NCBI GenBank assembly: GCA_017620475.1
Contig: JAFZQI010000004.1
Location: 1 to 64,000 of the forward strand
Direction of reading: 5' to 3'
DNA: 64,000 bases
Origin: Clostridiales bacterium
GTDB taxonomy: Bacteria; Bacillota; Clostridia; Saccharofermentanales; Saccharofermentanaceae
The notes under the pieces were generated by a model. That model saw only the letters and a list, made by a program, of their open reading frames with translations. It ran no database searches and was not told the origin of the DNA. Within the stretch, counting starts at the first letter, position 1, and every line of letters starts with the position of its first letter. This document shows positions 13,201-21,548 of the stretch, piece by piece. A program made the position numbers and the translations under genes.

Positions 13201-15408
13201 ATGACAGAAGAAAAGACGCAAAAGAAAACGAACACCTGTCGTTTTGGCCGCTGGATCAAGGTTCTTTCCTGCACTCTGGTTATTGCGTTCCTTGGAACGC
13301 AGGGGATTGCGGCGATTCCTTTTGAGTCAGCAAGCAGCCACCTCGCTCATGACAGCGGATCGGGGCTGAACTTGGACAATCCGATGAATTATGCATTGTT
13401 CTGCTTTGACTATGCATCGTTCGGAAGCCAGGAAGGCGCACATACTTCAGGTGCATTGGCTGTTGCAGGTAATGCTGATTTCAGTACATTCTCTTTCTCA
13501 GGAAGTAACGCCGGAAGCAATGGTCTTCCTCAGCTCGTTGTTGGCGGAACTCTTTCGTTCCAGAATCTGAATAACCTCAATGGTAATATCATGGTTCCCT
13601 CTATTTCGAACCTTCAGGGCGGCAACTACAGTTTCGATAACTCCTACGGTATCGTAGAGGGTGTGACTGTTGACTTTGGTGCCGTTCGTGACAAGATGGT
13701 TGCTCGTGCGAACAGCGCGAATTACTATGCACAGAATTCTGCCAATGCTGATACTGTTGTCAGCGGCGGTGGCGGATGGAAAGTAGTTGAAGCCGTTCCG
13801 AAGGCCGGTTTTGATTCTTCCAGCAGCGTAATGATCTTTAATCTTCCTTCCGGTACGAGCCAGCTTATTGTTCCGGCTTATACAGATGTCATCATCAACG
13901 TTCAGGGATCTGAGATCAACGAACTCCCGCAGCTTCAGTATAAGGATGGTGGAAGCGTCTCCACTCCGAACGGCGGTGGCGATGATCGTGATGCATACGT
14001 TGTTTGGAACTGCGCAGAAGCAACGAAGGTTACTCTGACAAATACTTCCTTACACGGTGCGTTGCTTGCTCCGAATGCTCATGTAGAAAAGAAGAGCGGT
14101 AACTCCAATGGTGCGATCATCTGTAACTCGATCTTCAGCACATCGGAATTCCATAATGTTCCGAATCGCGTGAAGTTTAGATTCAATACTCCTACACCGA
14201 CACCTACGGAAACACCTACACCTACGCCGACAGATACGCCGACGCCGACTCCTACTGATACACCTACACCTACACCGACGGATACACCTACGCCGACGGC
14301 TACTCCGACAGCTACTCCGACGCCTACGGATACACCGACACCTACGGCAACTCCGACGGCCACACCTACACCGACGGATACGCCGACTCCTACGAATACA
14401 CCTACACCTACGGATACGCCTACACCGACTCCGACGGATACGCCGACACCTACGCCGACGAACACTCCGACTCCGAAGCCGACTGAGACACCGGTTCCGA
14501 CGAATACACCGATTCCGACGGCAACGCCGATTCCGAGCGCGACACCGTCGCCGACGCCGACAGATACACCTACACCGACGGCTACACCTACGGATACGCC
14601 GACTCCGACACCTACGGATACGCCGACTCCGACGCCTACGGATACACCTACACCGACGGCTACACCTACTGACACGCCGACACCGACTCCGACGGATACG
14701 CCTACACCGACACCGACGGATACACCGACGCCGACACCAACGGATACGCCGACACCGACAGAGACTCCGACGGCAACACCTACTGACACGCCGACGCCGA
14801 CTCCGACGGAGACACCTACGCCGACACCGCTGCCGACAAATACTCCGATTCCGACAGCGACGCCGATCCCGACGGTAACACCATTGCCGAGCGAGACACC
14901 GACACCTACGGAGACACCTACGCCGACTCCGACGGAGACGCCGACACCTACGCCGACAGATACTCCGACTCCGACGCCGACAGAAACTCCGACACCTACA
15001 CCGGTTGTCAAGTTGAACTATACGCCGACACCTACGCCGACGAATACTCCGACTCCGACACCGCTGCCGACCGCAACGCCGATTCCGACTGCAACTCCTG
15101 TTCCGACGGCAACACCGGTTCCGGTTGATAAGAAGACGGTGAATAAGATCACACCGACGGAGACTCCGGTTCCGACAGAGACTCCGGTGCCGACCGAGAC
15201 GCCGACACCTACACCGACTGAGACTCCGGCTCCTACGGAGACTCCGGTTCCGAAGCCGACATCTGATGTACTCGGAGCAACACGTGTACCGAAGACCGGT
15301 GATACGGGATCCTCTATCAAGCTTCTTGCGGGTCTGTTCTTCCTGGTAGCATCCGCAACAACAGTTACAGTAGTAGCGAAGAAGAAGGAAGAGGAAGACG
15401 AACAATAA
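13201..15408 (+). CDS. Cell-wall-anchored choice-of-anchor A protein with Thr-Pro repeat stalk
   Basis: A 735-residue surface protein. A signal peptide with a hydrophobic stretch lies near residues 18-38 ([20 protein letters not shown]). Residues about 60-325 match the choice-of-anchor A type domain ([13 protein letters not shown]...TSGALAVAG), predicted beta-rich and exported. Residues about 330-687 are an extended stalk of T-P dipeptides with Asp, Glu, Asn, Ala inserts. The C-terminus has VPKTGD, a hydrophobic helix and a KKKEEEDEQ tail, which is a sortase sorting signal of the LPXTG class. No sortase gene is present here. The N-terminal domain may bind a ligand at the cell surface; none can be named. 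Confidence 0.85.
14188..15261 (+). repeat. Thr-Pro-coding minisatellite-like repeat
   Basis: About 1.07 kb of degenerate tandem units built on ACNCCNACN triplets, coding [13 protein letters not shown]-like peptide. Two different short interruptions (around 14497-14550 with Ile/Val-Pro, and around 15010-15150 with a KLNY and a VDKKTVNKI insert) divide it into blocks. Third codon positions vary, which suggests selection on protein rather than recent duplication. Length variation between strains is likely. Confidence 0.85.
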
Positions 15409-15429
15409 GGTATTTGTTCAAATAGTCTG

Positions 15430-15462
15430 AAAGGCTGTCTCAGAAATGAGACAGCCTTTTTG
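15430..15462 (+). terminator. Terminator after the anchored surface protein
   Basis: Stem AAGGCTGTCTCA (15431-15442), GAAA loop, matching arm TGAGACAGCCTT and a run of T. It separates the surface protein from the TIR gene, so the two are probably independent transcripts. Confidence 0.92.
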
Positions 15463-15521: not shown

Positions 15522-18500
15522 ATGATCGATTACTACAACGCTTTTATTTCATATAAACATGCGCCGCTTGATATTAAAGTGGCAGAACATGTCCAGGCCC
15601 AGCTTGAACACTTTCACATTCCCGGGAGAATACGCAATAAAACGGGGAAGAAACGAATTCAGAGGATCTTTAGGGATAAGGAAGAACTTCCGATCACCAG
15701 TGATCTCTCTGAGACAATTGAGCGTGCTCTTGAGAATTCTGATTTTTTAATCGTCATTTGCTCGCATAGTACTTGCCAATCACAATGGGTCAAGCGCGAG
15801 ATACAGCTTTTTTTGAAGAATCATACCCGTGATCAGATCCTCACAGTTCTTGCCGAAGGCGAACCATCTGAGGTGATACCTGAGGAACTTCTCAAGGACG
15901 AGAAGCCGGAACTTCAGCCGGATGGATCGATCAAACTGGTTGTGCATGAGAAGGAACCCCTCTCCTGTGATTACCGTATGCCGTTCAAAAAAGCTGATAA
16001 GGAGGAGTTACCGCGTCTCGCAGCGGCGATTATCGGATGTTCCTATGATGAACTTATGAACAGAAGACGTCAGTATCAGATGCAGAGGATCGGTGTTCTG
16101 GGAATCATTTTGGCTTCGCTTGCACTCGGCTTTTCCGGATATATGTTTTATAGCCGTATGCGTGTCCAGCGCGCGTACCAGGAATCTTTGCGCAATCAAT
16201 CGATCTACCTGGCCAATGAGTCGCGTAAACTTCTTGAGAACGAGCAGCGAATCGAAGCCATTCAGTTGGCCCTGGCGGCACTTCCTTCCGAGAATGATGA
16301 AAGACCGATCACGGCAGAAGCGGTTCGCGCCTTAACGGATGCGACTTTAGCTTATATGCCGCTTTCCGGTTCAAGTATAGAATCTGTGTGGAATTATGTG
16401 GTATCTGAGAGAATAAGATCAATGACGATTTCCGATGATCATAACACTCTTGCCTGCAGTGATTATTCGGAAACAGTAACCGTATGGAATACAGAAAGTC
16501 ATGAGACCATCATTCAGAAAACTTTCCCGAAACAAAACGTTCTGCAGATCGTATTCGCCAATGATGAAACTTTGATCGTATTAACGAATACTACTGTATA
16601 TTCATTTGATGTTTCCAAGAAGAAAGAACTGTGGAATTACGAAATGAAAAAATCCGGTTACCGCAATGTGGCACCGATCTGCACATCTGATGGAGAGTCG
16701 TTTTACCTGCTCGATCTGGACAATACTTTCTGGCATTTCGCCGCTGAAAGCGGAGATGTTCTGGATAAGTTGAGTATTCCGAAAATGGAGGATAATACAT
16801 ATCCGATTTACGGAGATTTTGTTCTGTCACCTAATGACAGAACGATCGCTTTTGTTTCGCAGATCTATGATGGAGAAAATGCCAGTATTGGTGTAATCGA
16901 TGTGAAGACCGGTGATGCGGAATTTGCTTCCATCACTTCACCGGATGTCCGGAATATTATGTGGGTGGACAACGATCGTATTGCGGTATGCGGATATGAT
17001 ATTATGGACTCCAAAAACATGATCAATGGAGACTCGAGGATCCTGGAACCGAATAATTGCCGGATCACGCTTTTCCGGTTTGATGATACGCTTAAGGAAG
17101 TCTGGTCTTCCGACTTTATTTTTCACGAGTTCCGGGCAGCGAACGGATTCCTTTATATGGAGTCGAATGATACACTGGCTTATTACTGTGGCGATGTAAT
17201 GAAGATTTATGATTGTGCATCGGGAGAGGTGAAGAACACTTACGATACCAATCGTACTATTGTTCACATTAATGATAATGACGGAGATGGTCTTCCTGTT
17301 TTTATTACTGAAGACGGAGCGCTGGGGTCACCTTTAATGAGCGCAGGACCGGATACGATTTCATTTTCCTTCGAGCTCGTGAATAATATCGATATGGTGC
17401 TCGTTGGCGGAGGGGTCTATGTCCTTCGTACCAATGAATCCAAAATCTACTATTACGATGTTTTTGTTTCAGATGAAGAATGGGAAGAACTCGATGAAGA
17501 TGTGCTTATCGCCATGCCTGATCTTGATTACTTTCTTGACGATGATTATCTTGTATGCAGTTATCCGCTTGACATGAGCACTCATATTGTCGCTTATGAT
17601 TTGGCAGATGAGTCTTTGCTGTGGGATATCACACTCGAAGATGTCTATTCTTCGAGTTGCACGGTCCTGGGCGTAAGAGAAGATACGCTATATGTGTTGT
17701 GTCAGTATCATGTGGATTTCAGTTGTACTTATCTTCTCAGTCTATCTATGGAAGATGGAGAAGAAATCGACTCGCAGGTTTTGACGTATTACATAGGACG
17801 GATCGAGTCCGCAGTATCATTCGAGGGAGAGTATCTGACATACATTTATAAACGGAACGGAGGGAAAATCAATCAGATCGGCTTGCTGAATATTCTGACG
17901 GGAGATGAAGAGTATTATGACCTTCCGTTTAACACTTGCAATGCAAAGTGTGCTCCGGTGTATTTCCCTCAGGCGAATGCCATCTACTATGCTGATCAAG
18001 ATGAAGGTGAGTACATCATCGATGCAGAGTCCGGTGATTGGGTAGAGGTTGATCTTCCTGATGAGTGGAGCGGTACGAATATTGTTGAAGTGAATACTGC
18101 CGGCGATAAATGGGTAATTGCAGATACAAATCAGATCCTGTTTGTTGATGGTGACGGTGAAGTCGAGCAGGAATTGAACTGCGTTGGAAGACAGGCAATC
18201 GGTATTATGTTTTGGAAAGAGAAAAAGACAGAGCAGATGCTTGTCGTATTTATGGACGGCACAATGTATCGGTATGATGCTTCTGATGGTAAGTTTTTAG
18301 GTAGTCTTTCAGTGGAAACGTATGAGCTGGAAAACCTCCCGGCAACCATGATTATGGACGAGAAGAACCATACGCTGTTTATTCAGACCGGTTTCATAAC
18401 GGATGTGATCGATATCGATTCGTGGTATGAAGTGGCTGTTGTTCAAAACTCCCTGGGATACCATGCACCCAGTGATCAGTTCTTCGCTTACTCTTATGAA

Positions 18501-18629
18501 ACCAGCTATAAGTGCCGTATAGGAAAATTCCGTCACTACACGCTGAGTGATCTGATCAACAAGGCGCACAACATCCTCGGTGGTGCGGAATTACGGGAAG
18601 ATCAGAAGGCCAGATATGGTATCAGCTGA
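15522..18629 (+). CDS. TIR-domain / transmembrane / beta-propeller protein
   Basis: A 1035-residue protein. Residues 1-115 are a TIR domain: YNAFISYKH (box 1), RIFRDKEELP (box 2), ALENSDFLIVICS, and SQWVKREIQLF, where Glu93 lies where NAD-cleaving TIR proteins such as SARM1 keep the catalytic glutamate. One membrane helix is at about 190-211. Residues about 215-260 form a helical SIYLANESRKLL...AIQLALAALP segment known from TIR-WD40 and STAND-type proteins. The remaining 770 residues are repeated beta-strand blades of WD40/PQQ type, very acidic. If the N-terminus is cytosolic, the propeller is outside, like a receptor. It stands alone, after a terminator; its stop overlaps the convergent DHH gene. 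Function is inferred only. Confidence 0.85.
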   Translation: MIDYYNAFISYKHAPLDIKVAEHVQAQLEHFHIPGRIRNKTGKKRIQRIFRDKEELPITSDLSETIERALENSDFLIVICSHSTCQSQWVKREIQLFLKNHTRDQILTVLAEGEPSEVIPEELLKDEKPELQPDGSIKLVVHEKEPLSCDYRMPFKKADKEELPRLAAAIIGCSYDELMNRRRQYQMQRIGVLGIILASLALGFSGYMFYSRMRVQRAYQESLRNQSIYLANESRKLLENEQRIEAIQLALAALPSENDERPITAEAVRALTDATLAYMPLSGSSIESVWNYVVSERIRSMTISDDHNTLACSDYSETVTVWNTESHETIIQKTFPKQNVLQIVFANDETLIVLTNTTVYSFDVSKKKELWNYEMKKSGYRNVAPICTSDGESFYLLDLDNTFWHFAAESGDVLDKLSIPKMEDNTYPIYGDFVLSPNDRTIAFVSQIYDGENASIGVIDVKTGDAEFASITSPDVRNIMWVDNDRIAVCGYDIMDSKNMINGDSRILEPNNCRITLFRFDDTLKEVWSSDFIFHEFRAANGFLYMESNDTLAYYCGDVMKIYDCASGEVKNTYDTNRTIVHINDNDGDGLPVFITEDGALGSPLMSAGPDTISFSFELVNNIDMVLVGGGVYVLRTNESKIYYYDVFVSDEEWEELDEDVLIAMPDLDYFLDDDYLVCSYPLDMSTHIVAYDLADESLLWDITLEDVYSSSCTVLGVREDTLYVLCQYHVDFSCTYLLSLSMEDGEEIDSQVLTYYIGRIESAVSFEGEYLTYIYKRNGGKINQIGLLNILTGDEEYYDLPFNTCNAKCAPVYFPQANAIYYADQDEGEYIIDAESGDWVEVDLPDEWSGTNIVEVNTAGDKWVIADTNQILFVDGDGEVEQELNCVGRQAIGIMFWKEKKTEQMLVVFMDGTMYRYDASDGKFLGSLSVETYELENLPATMIMDEKNHTLFIQTGFITDVIDIDSWYEVAVVQNSLGYHAPSDQFFAYSYETSYKCRIGKFRHYTLSDLINKAHNILGGAELREDQKARYGIS

Positions 18630-20112
18630 CGGTTTCAGAGCGACGGTATAGCTGCGGGAACAAGCTTCCTTTTATGATATAGATATCGTGCATATCCTCG
18701 GCGCGAACTGCGATGTAATCGCCGATGTTGCCAAGATAGTATTTCTCTTCGTCCCATGAAGTGAAAAGCTTGATACAGTGATCAAGAGGCTTAGCATAAA
18801 TGAGTCCGCCACCGTGGCTGATCACGGCCTGTGCATATTTCATGACATCTTTTCTTTCGCCTGTAGCGATATCCTTTATGCTCGGCGAGTAATCAAATTT
18901 GCGTGAATAGGGACGGCCTAACTCCTTATATCTATCCAGAAGCTTTTTGCGGTTGATGGGGTAGACTTCACCTTCGATACCGATCATCAGATAACTGTCT
19001 TCCTCAACGGAAATACTGACGTCGCCTTCCAATGTGCGAATCTCGATGCGTGTATTGGGAGGATATATATCGGAAAGATGCACGGTTCCCACTTCCTGAG
19101 GCAATTTCTCATACAGTTCCATATCAGATGGATCAAGATTGGTATCCTTGGCATAAAGAATCGTAAACATCTCAAAGTAAGCCTCCATACGTTCCTGCAG
19201 AAAAGAAGGAGCATCCTTTGTCAGTTTCTCGGGGCGTAGTGCTCCGCCCGCTTTGTAAATGTGTCCGCCACCACCGCCTACGCCGTCAGCCAGAAAAGCA
19301 GCTAATTCGTTGGCATGGACCTCTTTGACACAGCTTCTTACGGAGAATTTGACCTCGTATGAGCTGATATAGTAGGCAAGGCATACATCTACCTTGTCCG
19401 TCTCTAATGAAAAATCACTGATTACGCCCAGAATGTTCGGATCACAGGGCTCGGATTGGATAATCAGGTAGTTGTGTTTATTGAAAAATTCATAGGAGAG
19501 GATCGCCTGTCCCGTGATCTTCAGTTCCCGCAGAGATATGTTGGAGTTACTCATCTTCGTAATCAGGCTCCTTTGGATCGAAAGCGTATCCAGCATATCG
19601 CGGTCAAGCGGGTGGGAAACTTCGGAGAGACGGTTGGTATCCGTATATACCCCGTAATAAAGCGCGGTAGCCAAATCCTTGTTTTCGTTGACGTCGAGGC
19701 CTTCTTCGCGGATCAGATCCCACACCAGAGTGGAACAGCTTCCGAGATTACCACGTACTTCTGAGAGTTCGGGAAGGGGAACCGTGACCTGATGATGATC
19801 TATGATGGAGATAGTCTTCGCAGGTGTCTGCGTAATATTCCGCTGACCGTACTGGCAGTCTACGGTGATCAGTAATTCCGGCTCCGATGTGACCTCTTCC
19901 TCGTATGTAACGGGAATATGAAGTTCATCGAGCATGATCCGAAGGTTGCTTTTGGTGATCTGATTATGGCCGCGATAAATAAAGCGGGCCTTCTTATTGT
20001 TCTTTTCAAAATACCACATGAGGGCGGCGCCACTTGCGAGCGCGTCTGCATCGGGGTTGTCATGACACTGGATCACGATATCGTTGAATGATAGAAGTTG
20101 TGAGAGTTTCAT
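18622..20112 (-). CDS. DHH/DHHA1-family phosphoesterase (NrnA/RecJ-like) with C-terminal extension
   Basis: A 496-residue DHH phosphoesterase. Motif I is HDNPDADALASG (residues 17-28), the DHH motif itself is IIDHHQ (residues 103-108), and DHHA1 carries a GGGGGH near residue 285. Relatives degrade short oligoribonucleotides or cyclic-dinucleotide products such as pApA. Residues beyond about 340 form an extra domain of roughly 150 residues not seen in short NrnA; I do not recognise it. GAAGGAG precedes the ATG. The gene converges with the TIR gene, both stops lying in the shared octamer TCAGCTGA. Confidence 0.85.
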   Translation of the reverse strand: MKLSQLLSFNDIVIQCHDNPDADALASGAALMWYFEKNNKKARFIYRGHNQITKSNLRIMLDELHIPVTYEEEVTSEPELLITVDCQYGQRNITQTPAKTISIIDHHQVTVPLPELSEVRGNLGSCSTLVWDLIREEGLDVNENKDLATALYYGVYTDTNRLSEVSHPLDRDMLDTLSIQRSLITKMSNSNISLRELKITGQAILSYEFFNKHNYLIIQSEPCDPNILGVISDFSLETDKVDVCLAYYISSYEVKFSVRSCVKEVHANELAAFLADGVGGGGGHIYKAGGALRPEKLTKDAPSFLQERMEAYFEMFTILYAKDTNLDPSDMELYEKLPQEVGTVHLSDIYPPNTRIEIRTLEGDVSISVEEDSYLMIGIEGEVYPINRKKLLDRYKELGRPYSRKFDYSPSIKDIATGERKDVMKYAQAVISHGGGLIYAKPLDHCIKLFTSWDEEKYYLGNIGDYIAVRAEDMHDIYIIKGSLFPQLYRRSETVS

Positions 20113-20215: not shown

Positions 20216-20244
20216 TTGACACGTTCATGTTCTATAAGTATAAT
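20216..20244 (+). promoter_or_regulatory. Consensus promoter of tRNA-Leu
   Basis: A perfect TTGACA (20216-20221), a 17-base spacer, and a perfect TATAAT (20239-20244). The tRNA starts 22 bases downstream. A full consensus is typical of stable-RNA genes. Confidence 0.92.
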
Positions 20245-20266: not shown

Positions 20267-20349
20267 GCGGCGGTGGCGGAATTGGCAGACGCGCACGTTT
20301 GAGGGGCGTGTGGGCGACCATACGGGTTCAAGTCCCGTTCGCCGCACCA
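20267..20349 (+). tRNA. tRNA-Leu (anticodon GAG), CCA encoded
   Basis: An 83-base class II tRNA. The acceptor stem pairs GCGGCGG with TCGCCGC followed by A and an encoded CCA. The anticodon stem-loop reads CACGT-TTGAGGG-GCGTG, giving anticodon GAG for CUC/CUU codons. The T arm contains GGTTCAAGTCC. The variable arm is long, as expected for leucine. Confidence 0.95.
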
Positions 20350-20382
20350 AGACTTGAGGAAGAATTTCCTCAAGTCTTTTTT
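20350..20382 (+). terminator. Terminator after tRNA-Leu
   Basis: GACTTGAGGAA (20351-20361) pairs with TTCCTCAAGTC (20366-20376), followed by six T. It begins right after the CCA end. Confidence 0.9.
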
Positions 20383-20465: not shown

Positions 20466-21548
20466 ATGAAACTGAATCTTAAGAAGTTTGCATGTCTGGC
20501 GATCTCGTTGTCGATGATCCTTTCTGCGGCGGCTTGTACTTCCAAGAAGTCAAAAGACAAGGATGATGAAGAAGAATCCTCCGGCTGTGTAGCTGCAGCG
20601 GAGACCGTTCTTGACGCCATCGTTTCGCTCGATAGTAAGAAGATCAAGAAGCTTAGTAAAGAATTCGGAGTCGATGAGGATTATATTGCTGATCTGAACA
20701 GCATTTCCGAGTATGAGTTCGTTGCCGCTCTTATGGAGAAGGCTTCCTACGAGATCGATGAAGATAGCGTAAAGGAAAAGAAGAAGACCGCTTCATGCGA
20801 TGCGACGATCAAGATCCCGGATTATGAAGCAGCCATGGAAGAATCGGATGGTGATCTGGATGCATTTAAAGATGCGATCAAGTCCCAGAAAGAGAAGAAA
20901 TACAAGTCTTATGATGTCACACTCGAGTTCACGGTCGATGATGGTGAATACACACTTACCAATATCAGTGATATCCTTTCTGACTTTTATTCTCCGATCG
21001 TAATAGACCTGGATAACGGCGGAAGCACAGGAACCGAGCCGACTTTGAATACGGAGCCGACGGAAACCGAGCCGGCCGACACAAAGGAAACGAAGGATAC
21101 AACGCAGGATACTACAACACAATCCACTGAAGAAGTTACTCCGGTGAAGATTGCTGATCTGAAGAAGGTTTCCCTTGATTCTGAAGCTTTCATCATGGCT
21201 TTGGAAATCGCTGATGGCGGTGCGGCAAAGAACGCAACCGAAGAGGAACAGGACGGTGTTCAGAAGTACATCTCTTCGTATTCGAACGATTTCGGCTGCA
21301 TGTATATGTACTATGAGTACGCGACGGATGACGAGGCGAAGCAGTTCTTCGGCTCCTTCAGTTATTTCAAGGATGAGGCGCCCTATTATGCCGATAACGG
21401 TGACTGGGGATATATCGCTTACCAGTACACGACCTTGACATACTTCGTTTACTACTCTGACAATGTCATCGTATATGCATATGCATTGGACGGCAGTGAA
21501 GAGGTTATGAATAGACTTTACGATTTCACGGAAGCCCTTGCCGGCTGA
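20466..21548 (+). CDS. Lipoprotein of unknown function
   Basis: A 360-residue exported lipoprotein. The signal peptide ends in the lipobox SAAAC with the modified Cys at residue 24. Residues about 25-175 form one alpha/beta domain (a DUF-type domain with LDAIVSLDSKKIKKLS). A Thr/Glu/Asp linker follows (about 180-225), and the last 130 residues form a second domain rich in Tyr and acidic residues. No catalytic motif is seen. It has its own promoter and terminator, so it is a single-gene unit between tRNA-Leu and a metallo-hydrolase. Function unknown. Confidence 0.8.
   Translation: MKLNLKKFACLAISLSMILSAAACTSKKSKDKDDEEESSGCVAAAETVLDAIVSLDSKKIKKLSKEFGVDEDYIADLNSISEYEFVAALMEKASYEIDEDSVKEKKKTASCDATIKIPDYEAAMEESDGDLDAFKDAIKSQKEKKYKSYDVTLEFTVDDGEYTLTNISDILSDFYSPIVIDLDNGGSTGTEPTLNTEPTETEPADTKETKDTTQDTTTQSTEEVTPVKIADLKKVSLDSEAFIMALEIADGGAAKNATEEEQDGVQKYISSYSNDFGCMYMYYEYATDDEAKQFFGSFSYFKDEAPYYADNGDWGYIAYQYTTLTYFVYYSDNVIVYAYALDGSEEVMNRLYDFTEALAG

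Follow-up and report, generated by a model that had tools for sequence, protein, structure and literature searches.

A receptor-like TIR-propeller protein of Clostridia and its conserved DHH/DHHA1 phosphodiesterase neighbor: a candidate signaling module

Introduction

Bacterial TIR domains that cleave nicotinamide adenine dinucleotide (NAD), i.e., TIR NADases, are usually studied as phage defense effectors. A different setting is found in the window analyzed here (i.e., the 64,000-nucleotide stretch at positions 1 to 64,000 of contig JAFZQI010000004.1, forward strand, assembly GCA_017620475.1, from a Clostridiales bacterium of the family Saccharofermentanaceae). A single open reading frame (ORF) at 15522-18629 (+), the existence of which was confirmed, begins with ATG and encodes a protein of 1,035 amino acids (aa), in which a TIR domain is followed by one membrane helix and a tandem beta-propeller. 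What does a TIR domain do in a protein of this shape, and does it act by itself? We found that the TIR gene adjoins a gene for a DHH/DHHA1 phosphodiesterase, that this pairing recurs in several gene arrangements and families, and that the TIR gene is a core gene of its family. The recurrent adjacency suggests a receptor-and-reset signaling pair that is not described in the literature we searched.

Results

The two genes lie end to end on opposite strands in the window, as follows.

15522..18629 (+): TIR, single membrane helix, and tandem beta-propeller protein, 1,035 aa (ORF; Pfam TIR_2, ThsB_TIR, and PQQ_2; homologues in 101/115 family genomes)
18622..20112 (-): DHH/DHHA1 phosphodiesterase, 496 aa, the 3' end of which overlaps the TIR gene by 8 bases (Pfam, structural model, and adjacency)

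The preliminary description had the TIR gene standing alone, which is wrong given this conserved neighbor. At loci of the family, the TIR gene is followed by a convergent DHH gene in 20 of 21 cases, while the next commonest neighbor occurs in 8 of 21. Whole-genome matches placed a DHH gene on the same contig, at a distance of no more than 3.5 kb, for 89 of 99 TIR genes; these pairs are either convergent (76 pairs, including 71 within 600 bp and several with overlapping ends) or in tandem with the DHH gene upstream (13 pairs, 20 to 77 bp apart). For a second family, represented by one genome from each of 80 genera, the DHH gene was detected in 6 of the 8 genomes with the TIR gene versus 8 of the 72 lacking it (Fisher P = 2e-4). 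The arrangement in those six genomes is DHH-TIR tandem (three), convergent (one), tandem with the DHH gene downstream (one), and separated by an intervening gene (one). In a third family, the two genes are convergent (L149), and shorter TIR-helix proteins of 833 and 877 aa (L062 and L180, respectively) are also encoded in tandem with a DHH gene. Both genes are sparse in other families, yet the linkage recurs.

That the pairing is conserved across orientations favors functional linkage over chance inheritance. Passive conservation of a neighbor was considered and is less likely, because the DHH gene persists where other neighbors are replaced, in convergent and tandem forms and in several families. 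The evolutionary distances of the TIR and DHH proteins are correlated (mirror-tree r = 0.92; shuffles, 0.25 or less), which partly reflects plain phylogeny, and this value was not used as proof of linkage.

A homologue of the TIR protein was detected in 101 of the 115 genomes of the family (57 of 62 among the high-quality ones), mostly of the 1,035-aa type but with a shorter TIR-membrane-helix paralogue of ~830 aa included in the tally. Across the whole class, 27 of 292 sampled genomes gave a match. The gene is thus a core gene of one family that is scattered elsewhere, which is not the pattern of a defense gene. Its near-universality indicates that it is not a patchy defense gene, in agreement with the earlier proposal of a role other than phage defense, and the reading as part of a defense island was rejected on the basis of distribution and neighborhood.

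Other TIR genes were observed as well. The genome from which the window derives encodes a second TIR-membrane-helix protein (835 aa; contig C37:2726-3442; L055 968-3475, -) beside argH. Almost all genomes of the genus encode relatives of this protein. It has no DHH partner at its locus, and its C-terminal part is export-like in composition without a Pfam propeller match. Three more TIR_2 matches on other contigs of this genome (C11, C27, and C26; open frames of 736, 377, and 283 aa) are possibly defense genes. Elsewhere, two TIR ORFs (963 and 268 aa) stand head to tail in a genome lacking the DHH partner (L195, 6815-10583).

The layout of the 1,035-aa protein was examined in an alignment of 33 full-length orthologues and in a wider, overlapping set of 58 members from several families. 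Its parts, all on the plus strand, are listed below.

15522..15881 (+): TIR domain, residues 1-120, with box 1 "AFISY" and a WxxxE motif in which Glu93 is encoded at 15798-15800 (Pfam, orthologue alignment, and plant TIR structures)
15882..16076 (+): conserved TIR extension and juxtamembrane segment, residues 121-185, EPLSCDYRMPF..EELPRLAAAIIGCSYDELMNRRRQY (mean conservation of 71%, with many invariant residues)
16089..16145 (+): membrane helix, residues 190-208 (sole hydrophobic peak in the 33 orthologues and the 58 relatives)
16158..16376 (+): conserved helical linker, residues 213-285 (predicted helices at 175-239, 243-252, and 265-278)
16377..18536 (+): tandem WD40/BamB-like beta-propeller region, residues 286-1005, predicted to be extracytoplasmic (Pfam, model, and Foldseek; probability of export, 0.91)
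18537..18626 (+): conserved C-terminal tail, residues 1006-1035, with helices at 1008-1018 and 1026-1031 (orthologue alignment and model)

At the level of the sequence, this domain architecture is established. It agrees with the earlier reading of a TIR domain, one membrane helix, and a propeller, which Pfam, hydropathy, and Foldseek bear out; the ~770 residues of blades claimed at that time are reduced to ~720 residues of propeller, as residues ~213 to 285 form the conserved helical linker. Mean conservation among the orthologues is highest in the TIR domain (81%), followed by the next 65 residues (71%) and the linker (65%), while the propeller is less conserved (39 to 46%). The C terminus reads YGL or YGI in most relatives. 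The AlphaFold model of the whole protein, which was built on a four-sequence alignment, is weak (mean predicted local distance difference test [pLDDT] score, 58; mostly <50 in the TIR part).

Searches of the whole protein against Pfam matched TIR_2 (E = 4.1e-11) and ThsB_TIR (E = 3.8e-9), both above the curated cutoffs, and residues 1 to 285 alone gave a TIR match at 5e-13. The residues Trp89 and Glu93 of the WxxxE motif (residues 89 to 93) are invariant in 33/33 aligned orthologues and in 58/58 members of the wider set. In a TIR-profile alignment with weak E values, Glu93 is in register with the catalytic-type Glu of "W-C-L-x-E" in solved plant TIR structures. The NADase-type position assigned to Glu93 beforehand is thus upheld by both the invariance and the alignment to solved TIRs. 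Clostridia TIR_2 domains with demonstrated ADP-ribose or cyclic ADP-ribose products exist (PMC9092222, Table 1). Since activity was seen in only 28 of the 152 isolated TIR domains from bacteria that were assayed (PMC9092222), Glu93 alone is insufficient to settle NAD cleavage, and the domain is regarded here as a putative NADase.

Residues 190 to 208 form the only segment with membrane-grade hydrophobicity (mean hydropathy of 2.07 in the 33 orthologues; next best segment, 0.77), and no second hydrophobic segment was found in any of the 33 orthologues or 58 relatives. The side of the membrane on which each part lies was predicted using a composition classifier that separates lipoproteins and signal-peptide proteins from soluble cytoplasmic proteins, all taken from the loci at hand (95% and 98% correct in cross-validation). 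All 33 orthologues had a propeller part of the exported class (mean score, 0.92; window protein, 0.91), and in every case the TIR part was classed as cytoplasmic. With a retrained classifier, the propeller part of the wider set was of the exported type in 55/58 members and the TIR part of the cytoplasmic type in 58/58. Two proteins scored for comparison gave low values, i.e., the GyrA C-terminal domain, a cytoplasmic all-beta control (0.02), and the DHH partner protein (0.11). The classifier result is indirect evidence, but it fits a folded N-terminal domain in the cytoplasm, the absence of a signal peptide, and one span. These data support the predicted topology of a cytoplasmic N-terminal TIR domain and an extracytoplasmic propeller joined by one span without a signal peptide, as the preliminary description had anticipated with its N-in/C-out orientation. 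Cysteine poverty was dropped as a topology test because exported proteins of these genomes also contain cysteine.

A propeller fold is indicated by a Pfam BamB/PQQ_2 match (3e-8) over residues 301 to 487 and by the model, in which the region 295-1000 is all-strand and resembles the tandem WD40 proteins Utp21 and Apaf-1 (Foldseek E values, 1e-17 to 1e-18). Relatives in other families (L149, L152, and L154) have clear WD40 repeats. The propeller may sense an extracytoplasmic cue such as a ligand, a wall fragment, or a partner protein.

The DHH partner matches PF01368 (5.7e-14) and PF02272 (2.5e-6). Its motifs CHDNPDAD, VDCQYG, DHH, and GGGGGH are all intact in the window, and the metal-site motifs are conserved in 39/39 partners. 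The model of this protein (pLDDT, 79) matches the catalytic domains of GdpP, Rv2837c/NrnA, TM1595, and DhhP (VIA Z, 18 to 21), which are enzymes for cyclic dinucleotides or short oligonucleotides (i.e., cyclic di-AMP, pApA, and nanoRNA). The protein also has a strongly conserved C-terminal extension of 190 aa (18625-19212, -), for which sequence searches, in which the fold was not searched alone, returned no Pfam match and no significant PDB match; a weak match to phage family phrog_419, of unknown function, was obtained (PHROG E value, 0.005). Two internal repeats read by eye in this extension were not supported by hhalign (probability, 0.2%). A DHH paralogue with 40% identity and no TIR gene beside it lies in conserved surroundings on another contig of the same genome (C12:142474-143967; L101), and at a further locus (L103) a transposase-like gene pair adjoins this paralogue.

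Just upstream of the TIR gene, an ORF at 13201-15408 (+) encodes a surface protein of the LPXTG type, in which a putative adhesive domain (ice-binding-like, choice-of-anchor A) is combined with a Pro/Thr repeat stalk that is very long. A strong terminator-like hairpin (15429-15460) separates this gene from the TIR gene, and its conservation as a TIR neighbor is confined to the genus. On the other side of the pair, a perfect consensus promoter (TTGACA-17-TATAAT; 20216-20244, +) is located between the DHH gene and an ORF at 20466 for a lipoprotein-like protein; after this promoter comes a T-tailed hairpin (20349-20378).

Discussion

We consider a receptor and turnover module composed of the TIR protein and the DHH phosphodiesterase to be the best explanation of this locus, with a probability of roughly one-half. 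The 1,035-aa protein would be a single-span membrane receptor whose outward tandem propeller binds an extracytoplasmic cue. On binding, the TIR domains in the cytoplasm would shift in oligomeric state and split NAD+ at the site of Glu93, giving either ADP-ribose or an isomer of cyclic ADP-ribose. The cytoplasmic DHH/DHHA1 phosphodiesterase may act on this nucleotide, most likely by hydrolyzing it and so turning the signal off; alternatively, the C-terminal extension of the DHH protein might bind the nucleotide, and the enzyme would then be the effector. The observed basis of the module comprises the architecture, the invariant catalytic residues of both proteins, a propeller with the composition of exported proteins, near-universality, and linkage, to which the predicted NADase activity, ligand sensing, product identity, and use of the product as a DHH substrate would be added. 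More tentatively, and as something possible rather than probable, the pair may constitute a core nondefense pathway of Clostridia with an NAD-derived second messenger, in which the transmembrane receptor is itself the messenger synthase and a dedicated DHH enzyme destroys or reads the messenger.

Several observations weigh against the module. The positive-inside signal around the helix is weak (5.1 K/R before versus 4.4 after), and it was therefore that the composition classifier was trained for topology; the C-terminal part lacks a clearly export-like composition in 3 distant relatives among the 58. The DHH gene occurs without this TIR gene in one genome (G104) and in eight genera of the second family, the two genes are unlinked in three genomes (G086, G052, and G098), and the genus has a second DHH paralogue, also full length, with no adjoining TIR gene. 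We know of no DHH/DHHA1 enzyme that acts on ADP-ribose nucleotides. Finally, catalysis by both proteins is a prediction from sequence, and 28/152 is a low proportion of active bacterial TIRs in isolation (PMC9092222).

Among the other explanations, the one that survives best, although we think it unlikely, assigns the DHH protein the role of effector rather than off-switch: a nucleotide made by the TIR domain would bind the DHH extension and switch on a nuclease or phosphodiesterase, as in a Thoeris-like pair of maker and responder. It draws on the same linkage data, and the conserved 190-aa extension without a Pfam match, together with the lack of any other recurrent neighbor as an effector candidate at the 21 loci, is consistent with it. 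However, no ligand-binding family was detected in the extension, the enzyme core resembles phosphodiesterases that degrade signals, and the DHH gene is also found without the TIR gene.

Somewhat less likely still is a nonenzymatic TIR domain that serves in assembly, so that the protein would be a receptor or scaffold with protein contact as its output. Animal Toll receptor TIRs act mainly by assembly. Most isolated bacterial TIRs that were tested lacked NADase activity (PMC9092222), but the invariance of the WxxxE glutamate across families and the identity of the partner as a nucleotide enzyme argue against this reading. We give slightly less weight again to a housekeeping role, in which the TIR domain would act on NAD-capped RNA or free NAD and the DHH protein, as a nanoRNase or pAp phosphatase, would clear short RNAs or nucleotides. 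In its favor, nearly all genomes of the family carry both genes, the top structural matches of the DHH protein include NrnA-type nanoRNases, and bacterial TIR proteins are reported to strip nicotinamide from NAD-RNA (PMC10937652); a membrane span and an apparently exported 700-residue propeller nevertheless make little sense for RNA housekeeping. Least probable is a stand-alone abortive-infection TIR NADase that is incidentally membrane bound. TIR NADases are common defense effectors and PADLOC matches exist, though weak (12 to 24 bits), but the gene is near-universal in the family, has ordinary chromosomal neighbors and a conserved phosphodiesterase partner, and carries a sensor-type domain apparently outside the cell.

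If the module is real, bacteria would use TIR-made nucleotides for everyday sensing, i.e., TIR chemistry would have a physiological role outside immunity. The family consists of gut-type Clostridia in which the TIR protein is near-universal, receptor-shaped, and tied to a signal-type phosphodiesterase, and the module could contribute to an explanation of the variants of cyclic ADP-ribose that gut bacteria make (PMC9092222).

Taken singly, TIR domains, WD40 propellers, and DHH enzymes are all familiar. In the open-license PMC literature searched, which is not proof of absence, we found no TIR-WD40 or TIR-DHH system and no core receptor-like TIR protein with a conserved DHH partner. The TIR domain shares the Pfam TIR family (TIR_2 group) and a WxxxE Glu in register with solved TIRs with the NADases of SARM1, plants, and bacteria; in contrast to these, it continues into a membrane helix and a tandem propeller that is apparently exported, it belongs to a core chromosomal gene, and its activity is a prediction from sequence. 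Like the animal Toll and Toll-like receptors, the protein is laid out with a single span, a cytoplasmic TIR domain, and an apparently outer sensor. The order is reversed, however: the TIR domain is N-terminal and the propeller C-terminal, rather than a leucine-rich repeat ectodomain at the N terminus and a TIR domain at the C terminus; propellers replace the leucine-rich repeats, and the TIR domain is probably enzymatic. The likeness is an analogy of layout only, with no evidence of a common architectural origin. Tandem WD40 propellers also act as the presumed sensor of a cell death or NADase domain in Apaf-1, NACHT-WD40, and TEP1-type TIR-like proteins (PMC13174449; Foldseek to 5juy), whereas here no NACHT or AP-ATPase domain was found and a membrane helix takes its place. 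The partner has the fold and the intact metal-site motifs of the DHH-DHHA1 phosphodiesterases GdpP, DhhP, and NrnA/Pde2, but adds the 190-aa extension and adjoins a TIR gene. With Thoeris (ThsB TIR plus ThsA), the locus shares the ThsB_TIR match and possibly a two-gene logic with a nucleotide intermediate. It differs in having a membrane receptor, a DHH phosphodiesterase as its partner, and a distribution unlike that of patchy or mobile defense islands; a PADLOC scan of adjacent genes detected no ThsA, and DHH is the only recurrent neighbor. As a second-messenger system, the TIR/DHH pair would follow a logic comparable to that of a receptor cyclase with its phosphodiesterase.
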